Position numbers and translations under genes: made by a program | Notes under the pieces: model-generated | Seen by the model: only the letters and a program-made list of their open reading frames with translations | Database searches by the model: none | Told to the model about the DNA's origin: nothing | Shown here: positions 12,868 to 17,458 of the stretch, in pieces | How positions within the stretch are numbered: position 1 is the first letter of the stretch | Layout of the letters: each line of letters starts with the position of its first letter | Assembly: GCF_003261175.1 (NCBI RefSeq) | Contig: NZ_QLNP01000096.1 | Location: 1-64,000 of the forward strand | Direction: 5' to 3' | DNA from: Arthrobacter globiformis | Lineage (GTDB): Bacteria; Actinomycetota; Actinomycetes; Actinomycetales; Micrococcaceae | DNA length: 64,000 nt

Positions 12868-13358
12868 GCACCACTGACAGAACCTGGGCCGGTCCCTCCG
12901 CGCCGGAGCGTCTGAACCTGCTGCGGGAGGCGAAGTCGATTGCCATAGTGGGCGCCTCGGACAAGCCGTCCCGGGCGAGCTATTTCGTGGCCACCTATCT
13001 GCAATCCTCGACGCGGTACAAGGTGTACTTCGTGAACCCTGTGGTCAAGGAGATCCTCGGCCAGCCCACCTACGCCTCACTCGCGGACCTGCCGGAGAGC
13101 CCGGACATCGTGGACGTGTTCCGCAAGCACGACGACCTGCCCGGCGTGCTGGACGAGGCCGTCGCTGCCGGCGCAAAGACCCTGTGGTTGCAGCTCGGAT
13201 CGTGGCACGAGGGCGTGGCGCAGGATGCCGAGGCCGCGGGACTGAGCGTGGTGATGGACCGTTGCGTCAAGATCGAGCACGCGCGTTTCCATGGCGGGCT
13301 TCACCTTGCCGGGTTCGATACGGGAGTGATCTCCTCGAAGCGCCAGGTCCTGGCCTAG
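12864..13358 (+). CDS. CoA-binding (YccU-like) Rossmann protein, operon-borne
   Basis: The 164-aa protein has a CoA_binding domain with SIAIVGASDKPSRASYFVATYL at residues about 25-46 and YFVNPVVKEILGQPTYASL. The C-terminus VMDRCVKIEHARFHGG is conserved in the subfamily usually found beside metY genes, where it is annotated only as CoA-binding. Its ATGA start overlaps the metY stop by 4 nt. It is about 23 residues longer than its paralogue at 7382-7807. A role in handling an acyl-CoA or CoA disulfide during sulfur assimilation is speculation. Confidence 0.85.
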   Translation: MSTTDRTWAGPSAPERLNLLREAKSIAIVGASDKPSRASYFVATYLQSSTRYKVYFVNPVVKEILGQPTYASLADLPESPDIVDVFRKHDDLPGVLDEAVAAGAKTLWLQLGSWHEGVAQDAEAAGLSVVMDRCVKIEHARFHGGLHLAGFDTGVISSKRQVLA

Positions 13359-13364
13359 AAAAAA

Positions 13365-13406
13365 TGCCGGGCTGGAATTTGATGGGGGACAAGTTCCAGC
13401 CCGGCA
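13365..13406 (-). terminator. perfect 13-bp hairpin with T-run, conserved loop (copy A)
   Basis: TGCCGGGCTGGAA at 13365-13377 pairs perfectly with TTCCAGCCCGGCA at 13394-13406. On the minus strand it is followed by TTTTTT, a textbook intrinsic terminator for leftward transcription. It may also end the rightward metY operon. The loop contains GATGGGGGACAA (13381-13392), identical to the loop of the hairpin at 15473-15512. Confidence 0.85.
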
Positions 13407-13418
13407 CTCTCACTTTGG

Positions 13419-13446
13419 TAATCGACAGGGAACCCGAAAGGGTTAC
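13419..13446 (-). promoter_or_regulatory. candidate ECF-type promoter, copy A
   Basis: Read on the minus strand, GTAACC (13446-13441), exactly 16 nt, then CGATTA (13424-13419). The same two hexamers with the same 16-nt spacer occur at 15526-15553 upstream of the secreted protein. The pattern resembles ECF promoters, including the CGTAAC-type -35 reported for BldN. Transcription from here would run straight into the 13365-13406 terminator. Confidence 0.55.
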
Positions 13447-13485
13447 GCGGATTCCAAAACTTTTTCCCGTGGGGGTTGCTCCGCG

Positions 13486-14262
13486 TTAGGGCGTGCCGGG
13501 GACCGGCTTGGCCGGAACGGTCGGCATGCCGCCCGGCAGCGTGGGCACTGCCGGCAGCGGCTTCGCCGGAACGTGGGGAGTCACGCCGGTTCCGGGGACC
13601 GTGGGCAGCTGGCTGGGCCGGCCCGGCGTCGGCATCTTGCTCTTTGCGGCCTCGCCGGAGGGACCCTTTGACGCCGAGGAGTTCGATGAATCCTTCGCGG
13701 GAGCCTGATCCGTCTGGGCGGGCGTCACGGGTGCCGACGGCGAAGCAGCCGTTCCGGTAACCGATGGCCTGGGTGCAGCAACAGTCGGCGCCGGAGCCGC
13801 CGGGATGCCGGCGAGCGACGTGGGCACCGGCGTCGGCGCGGTTGTCTCGCTGGTCGGCTGGAAGATTCGGACCACGGTGTGGCCCACGCTGTTGCGGAAG
13901 TCCTCGCTGGATGCGGCGACAGCGCCGGCTCCGAGCCCCATGGCACCGACCACTGCGGCGCCCACCACAAAGCCCATGCGCCGCTGCCGGTTGCGGCGGT
14001 GCAGTTCAAGGCTCGCCACGTTGGAGGCGGCGCGTCGCATGGCCGGTTCCTGGGCGGGCACTACCGACGCGGGTACGCCTGCAGCGGATGCACCGTGGGC
14101 GAGCAGGGCGGCGAGATCGGCCCGCGGTCGGGGTGCGGCGTCCTGGGCGAGCCCGCGCAGTTCTTCGAGGGACCTGCGGAGATCGGCGTCGTCTTCGAGC
14201 CCGGAATCCAGGAGGATCGCCTGGATCTCTCCCTCTTCGCGGCCAGCCGGCGTGACACTCAT
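13486..14262 (-). CDS. single-pass membrane protein, probable anti-sigma factor of the adjacent ECF sigma
   Basis: The 258-aa protein has a cytoplasmic acidic N-terminus (about 1-95), one membrane segment at about 97-117 (GFVVGAAVVGAMGLGAGAVAA), and a long outside domain rich in Pro, Val, Thr and Ala (repeats such as VPAKPLPAVPTLPGG). Its ATG overlaps the sigma-factor stop by 4 nt (ATGA), the common layout for a cognate anti-sigma. I see no zinc-binding HxxxCxxC motif, so it would be a non-ZAS type. The Pro/Val/Ala tail resembles that of the secreted protein at 14911-15444. The anti-sigma role is inferred from context. Confidence 0.65.
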   Translation of the reverse strand: MSVTPAGREEGEIQAILLDSGLEDDADLRRSLEELRGLAQDAAPRPRADLAALLAHGASAAGVPASVVPAQEPAMRRAASNVASLELHRRNRQRRMGFVVGAAVVGAMGLGAGAVAASSEDFRNSVGHTVVRIFQPTSETTAPTPVPTSLAGIPAAPAPTVAAPRPSVTGTAASPSAPVTPAQTDQAPAKDSSNSSASKGPSGEAAKSKMPTPGRPSQLPTVPGTGVTPHVPAKPLPAVPTLPGGMPTVPAKPVPGTP

Positions 14263-14807
14263 GATGCTGCGTGGTCCTTTTCCTTGACGAGTTCGCGCAG
14301 GGCGATGAGCCCACGGCGCTGGAGCTGCTTGATGGCCCCCGGGGTCTTGTCCATGATGCCGGCCACCTGTTCCACCGACAGGTCCGCGACGATCCGCAGG
14401 ACCAGCACTTCCCGCTGGTCGTCGTTGAGCATGGCAAGTGAAGAAGTGATTCCGCCCAGCGAACCGAGCACCTCGTCCTCGGCGGAACTCGACCGGCGCT
14501 CATCCAGGAGCGGGTCGAATTCGGTGAGCTGCGGCGTTCTCGCGGACCGGCGGTGGTAGTCCACGAGCCGGGCGTGCGCCACGGAGAAAATGAAGGTCCG
14601 CAGCCCGGAGTGGCCGCCCCTGACATTGCTGAGCTTGGGCAGGACATCCACGAAGACGTCCTGCGTGAGGGCCTCGGCGTCGTCCACCCCGCGGGCCCGG
14701 AAATAACCGAGGACTGCGGGCGAAATGATGCTGTAGACAGCGCTGAAGCCGGAAGGGTCGCCAGACAGGGCTGCTGACAATTCGTCGTCGGTCAGCTGAG
14801 CTGCCAA
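14259..14807 (-). CDS. ECF-family RNA polymerase sigma factor
   Basis: The 182-aa protein has sigma region 2 (about 18-85, with LTQDVFVDVLPKL and TFIFSVAHARLVDYHRR) and region 4 (about 125-172, with LNDDQREVLVLRIVADLSVEQVAGIMDKTPGAIKQLQRRGL). I chose the TTG at 14807, 7 nt after GGAAGGA. The ATG at 14864 lies inside a perfect 13-bp hairpin with no ribosome binding site. It is cotranscribed with the membrane protein. The shared promoter-like motif at 13419 and 15526 is its likely target, by inference. Confidence 0.85.
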   Translation of the reverse strand: MAAQLTDDELSAALSGDPSGFSAVYSIISPAVLGYFRARGVDDAEALTQDVFVDVLPKLSNVRGGHSGLRTFIFSVAHARLVDYHRRSARTPQLTEFDPLLDERRSSSAEDEVLGSLGGITSSLAMLNDDQREVLVLRIVADLSVEQVAGIMDKTPGAIKQLQRRGLIALRELVKEKDHAAS

Positions 14808-14830
14808 GGAGCGGTCCTTCCCTTTACTGC

Positions 14831-14868
14831 AGGTGTGCGGCGGTAGTAAGCCTAGCCGCCGCACACCT
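14831..14868 (-). promoter_or_regulatory. 13-bp hairpin in the sigma-factor leader
   Basis: AGGTGTGCGGCGG at 14831-14843 pairs perfectly with 14856-14868 around a 12-nt loop. It lies between the end of the secreted-protein gene and the sigma start. There is no T-run on the minus side, so it may be a factor-dependent terminator or a leader structure controlling sigma translation. Confidence 0.55.
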
Positions 14869-14910
14869 CACGCCCCTATTCGGGGAACGCCCTGTTTCGC
14901 GTGCTGTGGA

Positions 14911-15444
14911 CTACTTGCCGGTGGGCAGGTCGGCAGCAGCGTCGGCCTTGACGTCAGCGTCTGCAGCGACGGACGGTGCGGCCGGCTTGGCCACGTGGTC
15001 CGCAACGTTCGGAACGGCCGGGGTGGCGGGAAGGGCCGGGGTGGCCGGAACGCCGGCACCACCGGGGACAGCGGGCGTAGCGGGGATTGCCGCGGTCACG
15101 TCGGCGCCTGCAGCCTTGTCACCGGCGGAGACGTTGGCGTTGGCGTTGTCCTTGTCAGCTTCCACTGCGGCGTCGGCTGCGTCCGCGGCTTCGCCGGCAG
15201 CCTTGGCCTTGGCGGCAGGGGCGGCAGGAACCGTCGGAGTAGCCGGCGCGGCCGGGACGGCGGGCACTGCCGGAACCTCAGGGGTGGCGGGAACGGCCGG
15301 GGTGGCGGGCGTAGCGGGGGTCACCTCTGCGTGCTGCGAGCTGGAAACCTGCGCGGCATTGGCCAGTCCGATGCCGGAGAAACCTCCAACAGCGACGATG
15401 GCGGCTGCAACAGCAATCTTGGTGGTCTTGCTAACACTCTTCAT
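14911..15444 (-). CDS. secreted Ala/Pro/Val-repeat protein
   Basis: The 177-aa protein starts MKSVSKTTKIAVAAAIVAVGG and has a clear signal peptide, probably cleaved near LANAAQ (residue about 31). The mature part is low complexity: tandem PATPAVPATPEVP-like units, an Ala/Asp/Lys-rich middle, then more PATPAVP units. No enzyme motif is seen; it is probably a wall-associated or surface-coat protein. I chose the ATG at 15444, about 10 nt after AAAGGA. The leader carries the hairpin and promoter-like motif shared with 13365-13446, which makes it the likely output gene of the neighbouring ECF sigma. Confidence 0.8.
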   Translation of the reverse strand: MKSVSKTTKIAVAAAIVAVGGFSGIGLANAAQVSSSQHAEVTPATPATPAVPATPEVPAVPAVPAAPATPTVPAAPAAKAKAAGEAADAADAAVEADKDNANANVSAGDKAAGADVTAAIPATPAVPGGAGVPATPALPATPAVPNVADHVAKPAAPSVAADADVKADAAADLPTGK

Positions 15445-15472
15445 CAGAAAAAAATCCTTTGGTTGATTGAAG

Positions 15473-15512
15473 GCCGGGTCGGAGGCCGATGGGGGACAAC
15501 CTCCTGCCCGGC
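15473..15512 (-). promoter_or_regulatory. leader hairpin with conserved loop (copy B)
   Basis: Positions 15473-15485 pair with 15500-15512 over 13 positions with one C/T mismatch and one G-T wobble. The loop contains GATGGGGGACAA (15488-15499), identical to copy A at 13381-13392. The stem sequence differs from copy A by compensating changes (GGAA/TTCC against GGAGG/CCTCC). It lies in the 5' leader of the secreted protein, about 30 nt before its ATG, followed by a T-run (15448-15454 region) just before the start codon. Confidence 0.65.
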
Positions 15513-15525
15513 GCTTACACATACG

Positions 15526-15553
15526 TAATCGCAGCCGCGGGCCGGCAGGTTAC
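15526..15553 (-). promoter_or_regulatory. candidate ECF-type promoter, copy B
   Basis: On the minus strand, GTAACC (15553-15548), 16 nt, then CGATTA (15531-15526). The flanks are also conserved with copy A: GCGG plus TTCC and an AAACTTTTT stretch beyond the -35 side. The spacing and orientation fit transcription of the secreted protein at 15444. The sigma gene next door is the obvious candidate to read it. Confidence 0.6.
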
Positions 15554-15603: not shown

Positions 15604-15643
15604 CGACGGCGGCGGGCCACCGTAAGGTGACCCGCCGCCGTCG
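15604..15643 (-). terminator. strong hairpin downstream of purA
   Basis: CGACGGCGGCGGG at 15604-15616 pairs with 15631-15643, extended inward by CACC/GGTG after one mismatch, with a 4-nt GTAA loop. It lies about 50 nt past the purA stop, so it probably ends purA transcription. There is no T-run. A smaller GCCGGA/TCCGGC hairpin lies between it and the stop codon. Confidence 0.7.
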
Positions 15644-15695: not shown

Positions 15696-16985
15696 TTAGT
15701 CAAGGATCAAATCGTTGACCACGATCGTCTGGTCGCGGTCCGGTCCGACGCCGATCGCGGAGAACCGAGTGCCGGACAGCTTCTCGAGGGCCAGCACGTA
15801 GTTGCGGGCGTTCTCGGGCAGGTCAGCCAGCGTGCGGGCGCCGGTGATGTCCTCGGTCCAGCCTTCGAAGTATTCGAAGATGGGCTTGGCGTGGTGGAAT
15901 TCCGTCTGGGTCATGGGCATCTCGTCGTGCCGGACGCCGTCGACGTCGTAGGCCACGCACACCGGGATCTGTTCGATGCCGGTGAGGACGTCAAGCTTGG
16001 TGACGAAGTAGTCCGTGAAGCCGTTCACCCGGGAGGCGTGGCGGGCCAGGACGGCGTCGTACCAGCCGCAGCGCCGCGGGCGGCCGGTGTTGACGCCGAA
16101 TTCGCCGCCGGTCTTCTGCAGGTACATGCCCATCTCGTCGAACAGCTCCGTAGGGAACGGGCCAGCGCCGACGCGGGTGGTGTACGCCTTGATGATGCCG
16201 ATGGACCGCGAGATGCGGGTGGGGCCAATGCCCGAACCCACCGAGGCACCGCCCGCCGTCGGGTTGGAGGAGGTGACGAACGGGTAGGTGCCGTGGTCGA
16301 CGTCGAGGAACGTGGCCTGGCCGCCTTCCATGAGCACCACCTTGCCCTCGTCCAGGGCTGTGTTCAGCACGAGGGTGCTGTCAATGACCAGGGGGCGCAG
16401 CCGGTCGGCGAAGGAGAGGAAGTAGTTGACCACTTCATCCACCTCGATGCTGCGGCGGTTGTAGACCTTGACCAGGAGCTCGTTCTTCTGGCGCAGCGAC
16501 CCTTCGACCTTCTGGCGCAGGATGGACTCGTCGAAGACGTCCTGGACGCGGATCCCGAGGCGGGCAACCTTGTCCATGTAGGTGGGCCCGATGCCGCGGC
16601 CGGTGGTGCCGATGGCGCGGCTGCCGAGGAAGCGTTCGGTGACCTTGTCCAGCACCTGGTGGTACGGGGCCACAAGGTGGGCGTTCGCGGAAACCCGCAG
16701 CTTGGAGGTGTCCGCGCCGCGGGCTTCGAGGCCTTCGATCTCCTGGAAAAGTGCCTCCAGGTTGACGACGCAGCCGTTGCCGATGATGGGGACGGCGTTG
16801 GGGCTGAGGATGCCGGCCGGAAGGAGCTTGAGCTCATACTTCTCACCGCCTACGACGACGGTGTGCCCGGCGTTGTTGCCGCCGTTCGGCTTCACGACAT
16901 AGTCGACGCGGCCGCCAAGCAGGTCGGTGGCCTTACCTTTTCCTTCGTCGCCCCATTGGGCTCCGACGATCACGATTGCTGGCAT
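15696..16985 (-). CDS. purA: adenylosuccinate synthetase
   Basis: PurA joins aspartate to IMP using GTP, the first committed step to AMP. The 429-aa length is standard. The GTP loop GDEGKGK with catalytic Asp13 is at residues 12-18, and His41 is in [27 protein letters not shown] and TGRPRRCGW are also present. I chose the ATG at 16985, 5 nt after GGAGG. The long + strand frame over this region is a shadow. It is far from purSQL and has its own promoter region. Confidence 0.96.
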
Positions 16986-17458
16986 GGGATCCTCCCCCAT
17001 TCGTTCGGGCCTAGCCCGGCTGGATCACCGAGGTGCTTCAACCAGAGGTCGGCGCCGTTCATGAGAATGCCCCGAATTCGTCGTCCGAACCCGCCGCGCT
17101 GACCGGGAAAGGGACGCAAGAGTTCCGGGGCTCTTACCACCCAAGTTTAGCGGATGGTCCACCCGCAGATCGCCGTCGCAAAGCTCGAGGCTCTGGGAGA
17201 AGGCGCACGCCTCGCCACCGAACGGCTCTTGGAAGTGATTTAGCCCTCATTTGCTGCCCTGCAGGCCCTTTCCCCCGCGTGTCGGCGGCGGCGGCGCGCG
17301 GAGCGGAACCCTGCGGTTCGGACGCCTTGCTAAACTGGGAAGGGCCGGTCAGGTACCGGCCCACACCTCATTTCTCACCACGCCGCACTCGGGCATGCCA
17401 GCGGCGTGCCGGACTGCGGCGCGGCGGCGCGACCCACCTGCAGGAGACACAGCACCAT
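16986..17458. other. divergent intergenic region of 473 bp
   Basis: No convincing gene is seen. On the minus side it holds the purA promoter; CTAAAC near 17146-17151 (minus) could be its -10. On the plus side TAAACT at 17331-17336 is a plausible -10 for the next gene, and the hairpin GGGCCGGT/ACCGGCCC at 17342-17362 would then be at the very 5' end of that mRNA. A 29-codon frame at 17154-17243 has no ribosome binding site and is not called. Confidence 0.5.

Follow-up and report, generated by a model that had tools for sequence, protein, structure and literature searches.

We analyzed a window of 64,000 nucleotides from Arthrobacter globiformis (assembly GCF_003261175.1, contig NZ_QLNP01000096.1, positions 1 to 64,000), in which two promoter-linked hairpins with the same C-rich loop, designated copies A and B, lie on either side of a gene for an extracytoplasmic function (ECF) sigma factor. 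An initial annotation, made from the sequence alone, had described a duplicated ECF-type promoter and hairpin around this gene, a membrane-partner candidate and a secreted Ala/Pro-rich protein. Profile matches and open reading frame (ORF) inspection bear out this gene content. The relevant features are listed below; bit scores refer to the covariance model R1, whose seed alignment includes both hairpins.

13357..13413, minus strand: predicted short RNA A of ~57 nt with a T-run at its end (from the sequence; fold z -7.55)
13365..13406, minus strand: hairpin A, loop UCCCCCAU at 13389-13382 (72.5 bits with R1)
13419..13446, minus strand: SigD-type promoter A, GTAACC-N16-CGATTA(C), exact match that fits the Corynebacterium glutamicum SigD consensus
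13486..14262, minus strand: Ala/Pro-rich protein with one hydrophobic stretch (ORF read by eye)
14259..14807, minus strand: SigD/ShbA-like ECF sigma factor (Sigma70_r4, 9e-10)
14911..15444, minus strand: secreted Ala/Pro-rich protein, MKSVSKTTK... (ORF)
15473..15512, minus strand: hairpin B in a leader, loop UCCCCCAU at 15496-15489 (64.8 bits with R1)
15526..15553, minus strand: SigD-type promoter B (exact match)
15605..15642, minus strand: separate inverted repeat, probable purA terminator (sequence inspection)
16983..17000, minus strand: purA initiation region AUGGGGGAGGAUCCCAUG, a candidate target, with an exact match to the loop complement, AUGGGGGA, at 17000-16993

Two promoter-hairpin copies at a SigD-type sigma locus

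The motif GTAACC-N16-CGATTA occurs exactly twice on the minus strand, at 13446-13419 (A) and 15553-15526 (B), as the initial annotation had placed it. These are the only exact matches in the whole 4.88-Mb genome when spacers of N15-17 are allowed, and the reversed control gave none. Within the window alone and with up to 2 mismatches, two matches are unremarkable (shuffled sequences average 0.84, and 19 of 100 have at least 2). At A and B alike a hairpin begins 12-13 nt past the promoter. The two hairpins had been described as 13-bp stems with identical loops: the coordinates hold for both, while the stem length suits A better than B, whose stem contains mismatches. Both loops contain GATGGGGGACAA on the plus strand, corresponding to UUGUCCCCCAUC in the RNA. 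The predicted RNA folds are stable, with -34.9 kcal/mol for 13413-13357 (z = -7.55) and -31.2 kcal/mol for 15520-15460 (z = -4.74), and none of 200 shuffles was as good.

The two copies differ in what follows. On the RNA strand copy A continues with GGCATTTTTTCT, which includes a run of six T residues. The T-run of the proposed terminator is present in the sequence, but a simple terminator scan gave no flag there. The next gene downstream lies on the opposite strand. By its appearance, copy A encodes an RNA of ~57 nt that terminates itself, its start being predicted from the spacing to the -10 box. Copy B is followed by CTTCAATCA and is the 5' leader of the secreted-protein mRNA. Hairpin B was also considered as the terminator of purA and rejected, as purA has its own inverted repeat (15605..15642). 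Likewise, copy A does not serve as the terminator of the neighboring CoA-binding gene, since it stays in place at relatives' loci where the neighbor is a different gene in the opposite orientation (L080, L081 and L085).

Only A and B exceed 60 bits with R1 in the genome, which speaks against a dispersed repeat of the REP type. Two intergenic hairpins elsewhere in the genome (L002 and L010) share TGTCCCCCATGCATTCCGGGCCCGG; they are weaker, lack a SigD promoter and are perhaps further members of the loop family. One weaker C-loop hairpin without SigD promoter lies ~0.9 kb from a c-di-AMP riboswitch (RF00379, 57.1 bits, L002:2412-2577 on contig C46), past the gene that the riboswitch precedes, which on visual inspection resembles NlpC/P60.

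The sigma factor, whose ORF can be extended to 14864 through an in-frame upstream GTG, matches the ShbA model at 1.4e-21 and 77 bits, which is under the model cut-off of 209. Its profile also matches the Mycobacterium tuberculosis SigD chain 3vep_D (E 1.9e-11, region 4 only), which ranks third behind 9isn_F (4.1e-16) and 6dxo_A (4.7e-16). In C. glutamicum, SigD recognizes the consensus GTAAC-A/G ... GAT (PMC6338062) and governs cell-wall integrity (PMC6338062; see also PMC11175481). Both window promoters fit this type, with GTAAC at -35 and GAT at -10. The product of 13486..14262 is probably the anti-sigma partner in the membrane and is likened to RsdA solely because of its position: it has no Pfam or NCBIfam match (Pfam at E<=1) and no recognized RsdA domain, and in tblastn its relatives sit after the sigma gene in some loci, not all. 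The locus resembles the SigD-RsdA system of Corynebacterium and Mycobacterium in the sigma type, the GTAAC...GAT promoter and an adjoining membrane-type protein, but differs from it in a partner that lacks a recognized RsdA domain. The secreted Ala/Pro-rich protein likewise has no Pfam or NCBIfam match; its N-terminal part is conserved in the clade of the window and in a sister clade.

Two further observations concern SigD-like loci. At five of them (L027, L029, L031, L033 and L034) another promoter (CCGTAACTT ... CGATGTAGG) lies ahead of a different small protein (MSLFTVLATSK...). The second is L174, in genome G052, which belongs to a different family of the order. Here an exported repeat protein encoded upstream of a SigD relative apparently starts at GGUCCCCCCAUG, which comes after a SigD-type promoter.

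Covariation, loop conservation and range among relatives

In all, 99 distinct promoter-hairpin segments were collected, from which 43 distinct hairpins were aligned (alignment A2). A2 omits rows without TCCCCCA, five rows too short on one side and near-duplicates. In this alignment 94.4% of the cells pair, compared with 51-52% when the partner is shifted by one column. Indeed, 11 of 18 stem pairs are changed on both sides (shuffle mean 7.1; 2 of 500 shuffles reach 11), and double changes occur in 54 cells vs 14.1 in shuffles, with none of 500 shuffles reaching 54. Covariation around a fixed loop, first suggested by the two window copies, thus extends to the relatives, and the strongest support for the hairpin comes from there rather than from the window. 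Since the rows were chosen with TCCCCCA, A2 alone cannot test the fixity of the loop. Loci found through the sigma protein, in which the loop played no part in the search, have an unchanged core or one of two variants, CCCCCCA and CCCCCAA. Among the 99 rows CCCCC is present in 97 and TCCCCCAT in 73; L099 was dropped because its first hairpin lacks a C run, and the first loop of L107 has CCCC only. In an identity profile of 30 single-hairpin loci anchored on the loop, pairwise identity is 98% in the loop core, ~50-60% in the promoter spacer and ~30% at least 46 nt past the loop. The covarying stem pairs and constant loop core point to an RNA element rather than DNA alone, and we consider it nearly certain that a selected RNA element lies under the SigD-type promoter. 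The promoter rows, which were selected by GTAAC and CGATTA, have N16 spacing in 98 of 99 cases and G (98%) and C (97%) before GTAAC.

The promoter combined with CCCCCAT was found in 126 of 150 genomes of the same genus (reversed control 0), and a SigD-type sigma gene is adjacent in all 30 loci fetched from this search. A search of named genomes with the sigma protein gave 268 loci, of which 80 were kept (Arthrobacter, Paenarthrobacter, Pseudarthrobacter, Sinomonas and others). The strict promoter is present at 60 of these 80, with CCCCC within 70 nt in 58 of the 60. The initial annotation had named a lack of loop and stem-pairing conservation in close relatives as refuting its reading; both are kept, and this check was answered in favor of the reading. 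At seven further loci the hairpin follows a promoter that is variant or unmatched, at three (L094, L103 and L106) the sequence breaks off close to the sigma gene, and the remaining 10 match the sigma protein alone; these look like paralog loci, because none of the tested neighbors match. Promoter and hairpin are hence joined, conserved and tied to the SigD-type sigma gene. One record labelled Vibrio cholerae strain 35D carries an Arthrobacter-type sigma locus with the hairpin (L142) and is a mislabelled or mixed assembly.

Beyond the genus, and in addition to Sinomonas, R1 and inspection revealed the complete set of SigD-type promoter, C-loop hairpin and sigma gene in seven genomes from three other genera (G188 and G454; G444, G425 and G246; G384 and G405). 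In some of them the variants GCATAACC or CGATGAC occur. R1 matched 10 of the 18 genomes of this search: the seven, an array in the own genus (G111), one hit that the script could not read (G103) and one without a C-loop (G415). Loops AUCCCCCAAC and CCCCCCAACGA were also present among the hits. The other eight, three of them of the own genus, gave no R1 match. A scan of the order with a looser pattern matched 16 of 396 genomes, of which we judged 10 real and 6 chance or unclear. The real ones comprise eight of the own genus and two of genus g31 with hairpins matching those of Sinomonas. In the class, R1 matched 6 of 197 genomes, two of them of the own genus. A wider range in the class was rejected, as the readable hits in the other four (L245, L246, L248, L250 and L251) lack TCCCCCAT; L251 has the C-rich loop CTCCCCCAC, and L247 is too near a contig end to be read. 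Because R1 detected no clear case in another family among these 197 genomes, the element looks limited to Micrococcaceae.

Locus architectures and candidate targets of the loop

The hairpin occurs in three arrangements. In single-hairpin relatives (type 1), the promoter is followed by one hairpin with a U-rich tail, often by a TANNNT box, and then by the sigma gene; in the relatives listed, the loop precedes the sigma match by ~100-275 nt and shares its strand. A sigma-A-like TANNNT is found within 100 nt past the hairpin in 24 of 30 loci vs 42% of shuffles, which hints at a separate sigma transcript. In the clade of the window (type 2, L077-L085), copy B forms the leader of the secreted-protein gene, and copy A, a second promoter-hairpin, sits past the anti-sigma position in all nine loci. 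In the sister clade (type 3; 19 promoter-bearing loci, L086 to L107), several C-loop hairpins are found in the secreted-protein leader, and we saw neither a second promoter site nor, outside the leader, an R1 match above 17 bits. Their number in 12 array leaders is 2 to 4 when counted by eye and 1 to 3 by a strict script, which also misses the single hairpins of L081, L085 and L108. Tandem hairpins occur at two loci, L039 and L144. The three types represent the same locus, because purA, the sigma gene, the CoA-binding gene and metY are neighbors common to many loci of all three. In a rough sorting by script (94 of 99 rows, with L150 in the wrong group and some tails too short), copy A and the single-hairpin copies average 5.2 T in nine tail positions (n=67), and the B and array copies 2.7 (n=27).

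Two genes carry sequences complementary to the loop at their initiation regions. AUGGGGGA upstream of purA is present in 34 of 42 sequences including the window, and in 8 of 13 further genomes. The purA 5' UTR before the start (window 17002-16983, GAAUGGGGGAGGAUCCCAUG) is nearly invariant in many relatives, exceeding what a ribosome-binding site needs. At Paenarthrobacter-like loci, a polysaccharide deacetylase gene (PF01522, 1.8e-22) lies beside the sigma operon, with a start reading UUGGGGGACAACCAUG or variants. When 173 initiation regions were ranked by pairing energy with the loop, the top seven were deacetylase orthologs beside the sigma locus (-17.3 to -21.7; the next at -14.8). These regions were taken at the first ATG or GTG codon of ORFs of at least 220 aa from 12 sources and include spurious ORFs. 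The purA start in this ranking was the wrong one; with the likely start, purA reaches -17.2, level with the weakest of the seven deacetylase sites (-17.3). Among 13 ortholog loci, the deacetylase start codon is preceded by GGGGGAC in eight, GGGGGAA in one and nothing similar in four. A G-rich target pattern gave 144 matches in eight genomes vs 43 for the reversed pattern, overlapping start codons being counted apart. At one locus of genus g31 (Sinomonas-like, L185), the hairpin loop could pair with the likely sigma start region, whose sequence AUGGGGGAAACCGUG is its complement, so that sigma might be under feedback.

Proposed mode of action and relation to known RNAs

We infer the following course of events. 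A SigD-type ECF sigma factor would transcribe short hairpin RNAs whose working part is the exposed C-rich loop (UCCCCCAU here). Copy A would give a free RNA of ~57 nt ended by its own hairpin, while the secreted-protein mRNA would bear an identical loop, that of copy B, in its 5' leader. Under envelope stress the loop would pair with G-rich ribosome-binding sites and lower translation of chosen mRNAs, and the sigma factor would thereby acquire a repressing arm. The C-rich loops of B11 in Mycobacterium abscessus pair with G-tracts in 5' UTRs, as established with loop and compensating mutants (PMC10470900), and it is by this precedent that the hairpin loop is taken as the base-pairing seed. On balance we give even chances that loop pairing, mainly in trans, is the mode of action.

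Several findings weigh against it. The purA site is present in G490, G260 and G498, which have no R1 match, and its conservation proves nothing because it exists in genomes in which no hairpin was found. The deacetylase loci that lack the site (L103, L110, L113 and L139) lie outside the Paenarthrobacter-like clade, and the hairpin is present at three of these four, the fourth (L103) being cut; no target that tracks the element over its whole range was found. On inspection of 32 G-rich sites (18 distinct ones from 19 rows of G000; 14 of 15 of G033, with L217 left out), only two or three resemble genuine initiation regions, and the others seem to be coding sequence, often for Gly-Asp. The strict pattern is missing from 24 of the 150 genus genomes, and three of five re-examined ones gave no R1 match. 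A relationship to 6C was rejected, as the covariance model shows none in the loci and genomes searched. Since the leaders lack a T-run, a role in cis is possible for copy B and the arrays, which may work differently from copy A.

A cis-acting leader, i.e. an attenuator or stabilizer in the 5' UTR of the sigma operon or of the secreted-protein mRNA, with a protein or the leader's own sequence as the binding partner of the loop, is the most serious competitor, though we hold it to be rather unlikely. The position of the single hairpins ahead of the sigma match, the nature of copy B and the U-rich tails past many stems suit it well. It does not account for copy A, downstream of which no same-strand gene is found in the window, yet whose loop and stem are kept past the anti-sigma position in 9 of 9 clade loci (L077-L085); nor is there conservation past the hairpin, and a fixed loop needs a partner whereas a plain terminator does not. 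A translated leader peptide was rejected, as no peptide frame is kept: judged by eye, the clades differ by one base in the spacing of the loop from the conserved TG, and the sequence in copy B is GTG TAA.

The repeated C-loops might instead be a sponge or landing site for an RNA-binding protein, much as the GGA loops of CsrB and RsmZ bind CsrA. The several C-loop units in the leaders of the sister species and the tandem hairpins at L039 and L144 are as this idea would predict, but single-hairpin copies predominate among the 99 rows and no candidate protein turned up, nor was one looked for; we regard it as improbable. Ordinary intrinsic terminators or dispersed palindromes that share the loop by chance would explain the T-run at the end of copy A, the two weaker promoter-less C-loop hairpins elsewhere in the genome and the hairpins with other loops hit in other families of the class. 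However, the loop is near-fixed while the stem covaries, the tie to promoter and sigma gene is constant, and just two copies in the genome exceed 60 bits. This reading is already disfavored, and we consider it very improbable.

Among known RNAs, 6C/B11 (RF01066) is one of the closest to the element. Both are actinobacterial and have C-rich hairpin loops, with pairing to G-rich 5' UTRs as the working idea; unlike 6C, the present element mostly has one hairpin and five C residues in the loop, a SigD-type promoter and a place at a sigma locus. In mycobacteria and Streptomyces coelicolor, 6C sits near the Ms1 RNA gene (PMC6582537). No Rfam family matches the element in the window or at the relatives' loci. 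For 6C in particular, where membership was set at a covariance-model score of at least 47 bits, the model matched none of 11 loci at E<=5 and neither the own genome nor 12 others of the genus at E<=0.001; this absence is not certain, because among 14 control genomes the model matched C. glutamicum alone, with a score below the cut-off. A single 6C was found in the order, in a genome of another family (L157, loop UUGUCCCCCC). The element does not follow the layout of 6C, with its two hairpins and typically six C in each loop, as most rows have one hairpin with CCCCC; the sister-clade arrays and the two tandem loci have two or more hairpins, some with CCCCCC loops. We class the element with the C-loop regulatory RNAs, as a new variant among them and outside 6C.

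The element is unreported in the literature searched, from which subscription papers were mostly absent: passages of PMC6338062, PMC4046766, PMC3765725, PMC10470900, PMC11175481, PMC6429828 and PMC6582537 do not describe it, and PMC8632094 contained none of the search terms. The passages of two SigD papers retrieved by term searches describe no RNA of the present kind, although a small RNA is named as a possibility at P2lpd in PMC6338062.

The suggestion of a small sigma regulon with an unrecognized structured RNA is thus supported by the fit to the SigD consensus, the SigD profile match, the loop and pairing kept in relatives and the lack of an Rfam match. To this we add that the element extends past the genus, can be multi-hairpin and resembles C-loop small RNAs (sRNAs). 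The Sigma-E-dependent sRNAs MicA, RybB and MicL of enterobacteria resemble the proposed system in that an ECF envelope sigma factor has a noncoding repressing arm. We tentatively propose, at somewhat less than even confidence, that Micrococcaceae possess a new RNA family, a SigD-coupled C-loop hairpin of one to ~four units, which replaces 6C and gives the envelope-stress sigma factor a post-transcriptional repressing arm, and whose unit, with an unchanging loop core, serves by turns as a stand-alone sRNA or in the leader of the sigma gene or of the secreted protein. The short, near-fixed loop lends itself to direct target testing with one loop mutation and one compensating mutation, and the presence of one vs several hairpins in sister species offers a natural experiment on loop number. 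If true, the proposal would mean an ECF-sigma-encoded regulatory RNA in a family of soil Gram-positive bacteria for which the literature searched describes no such RNA.

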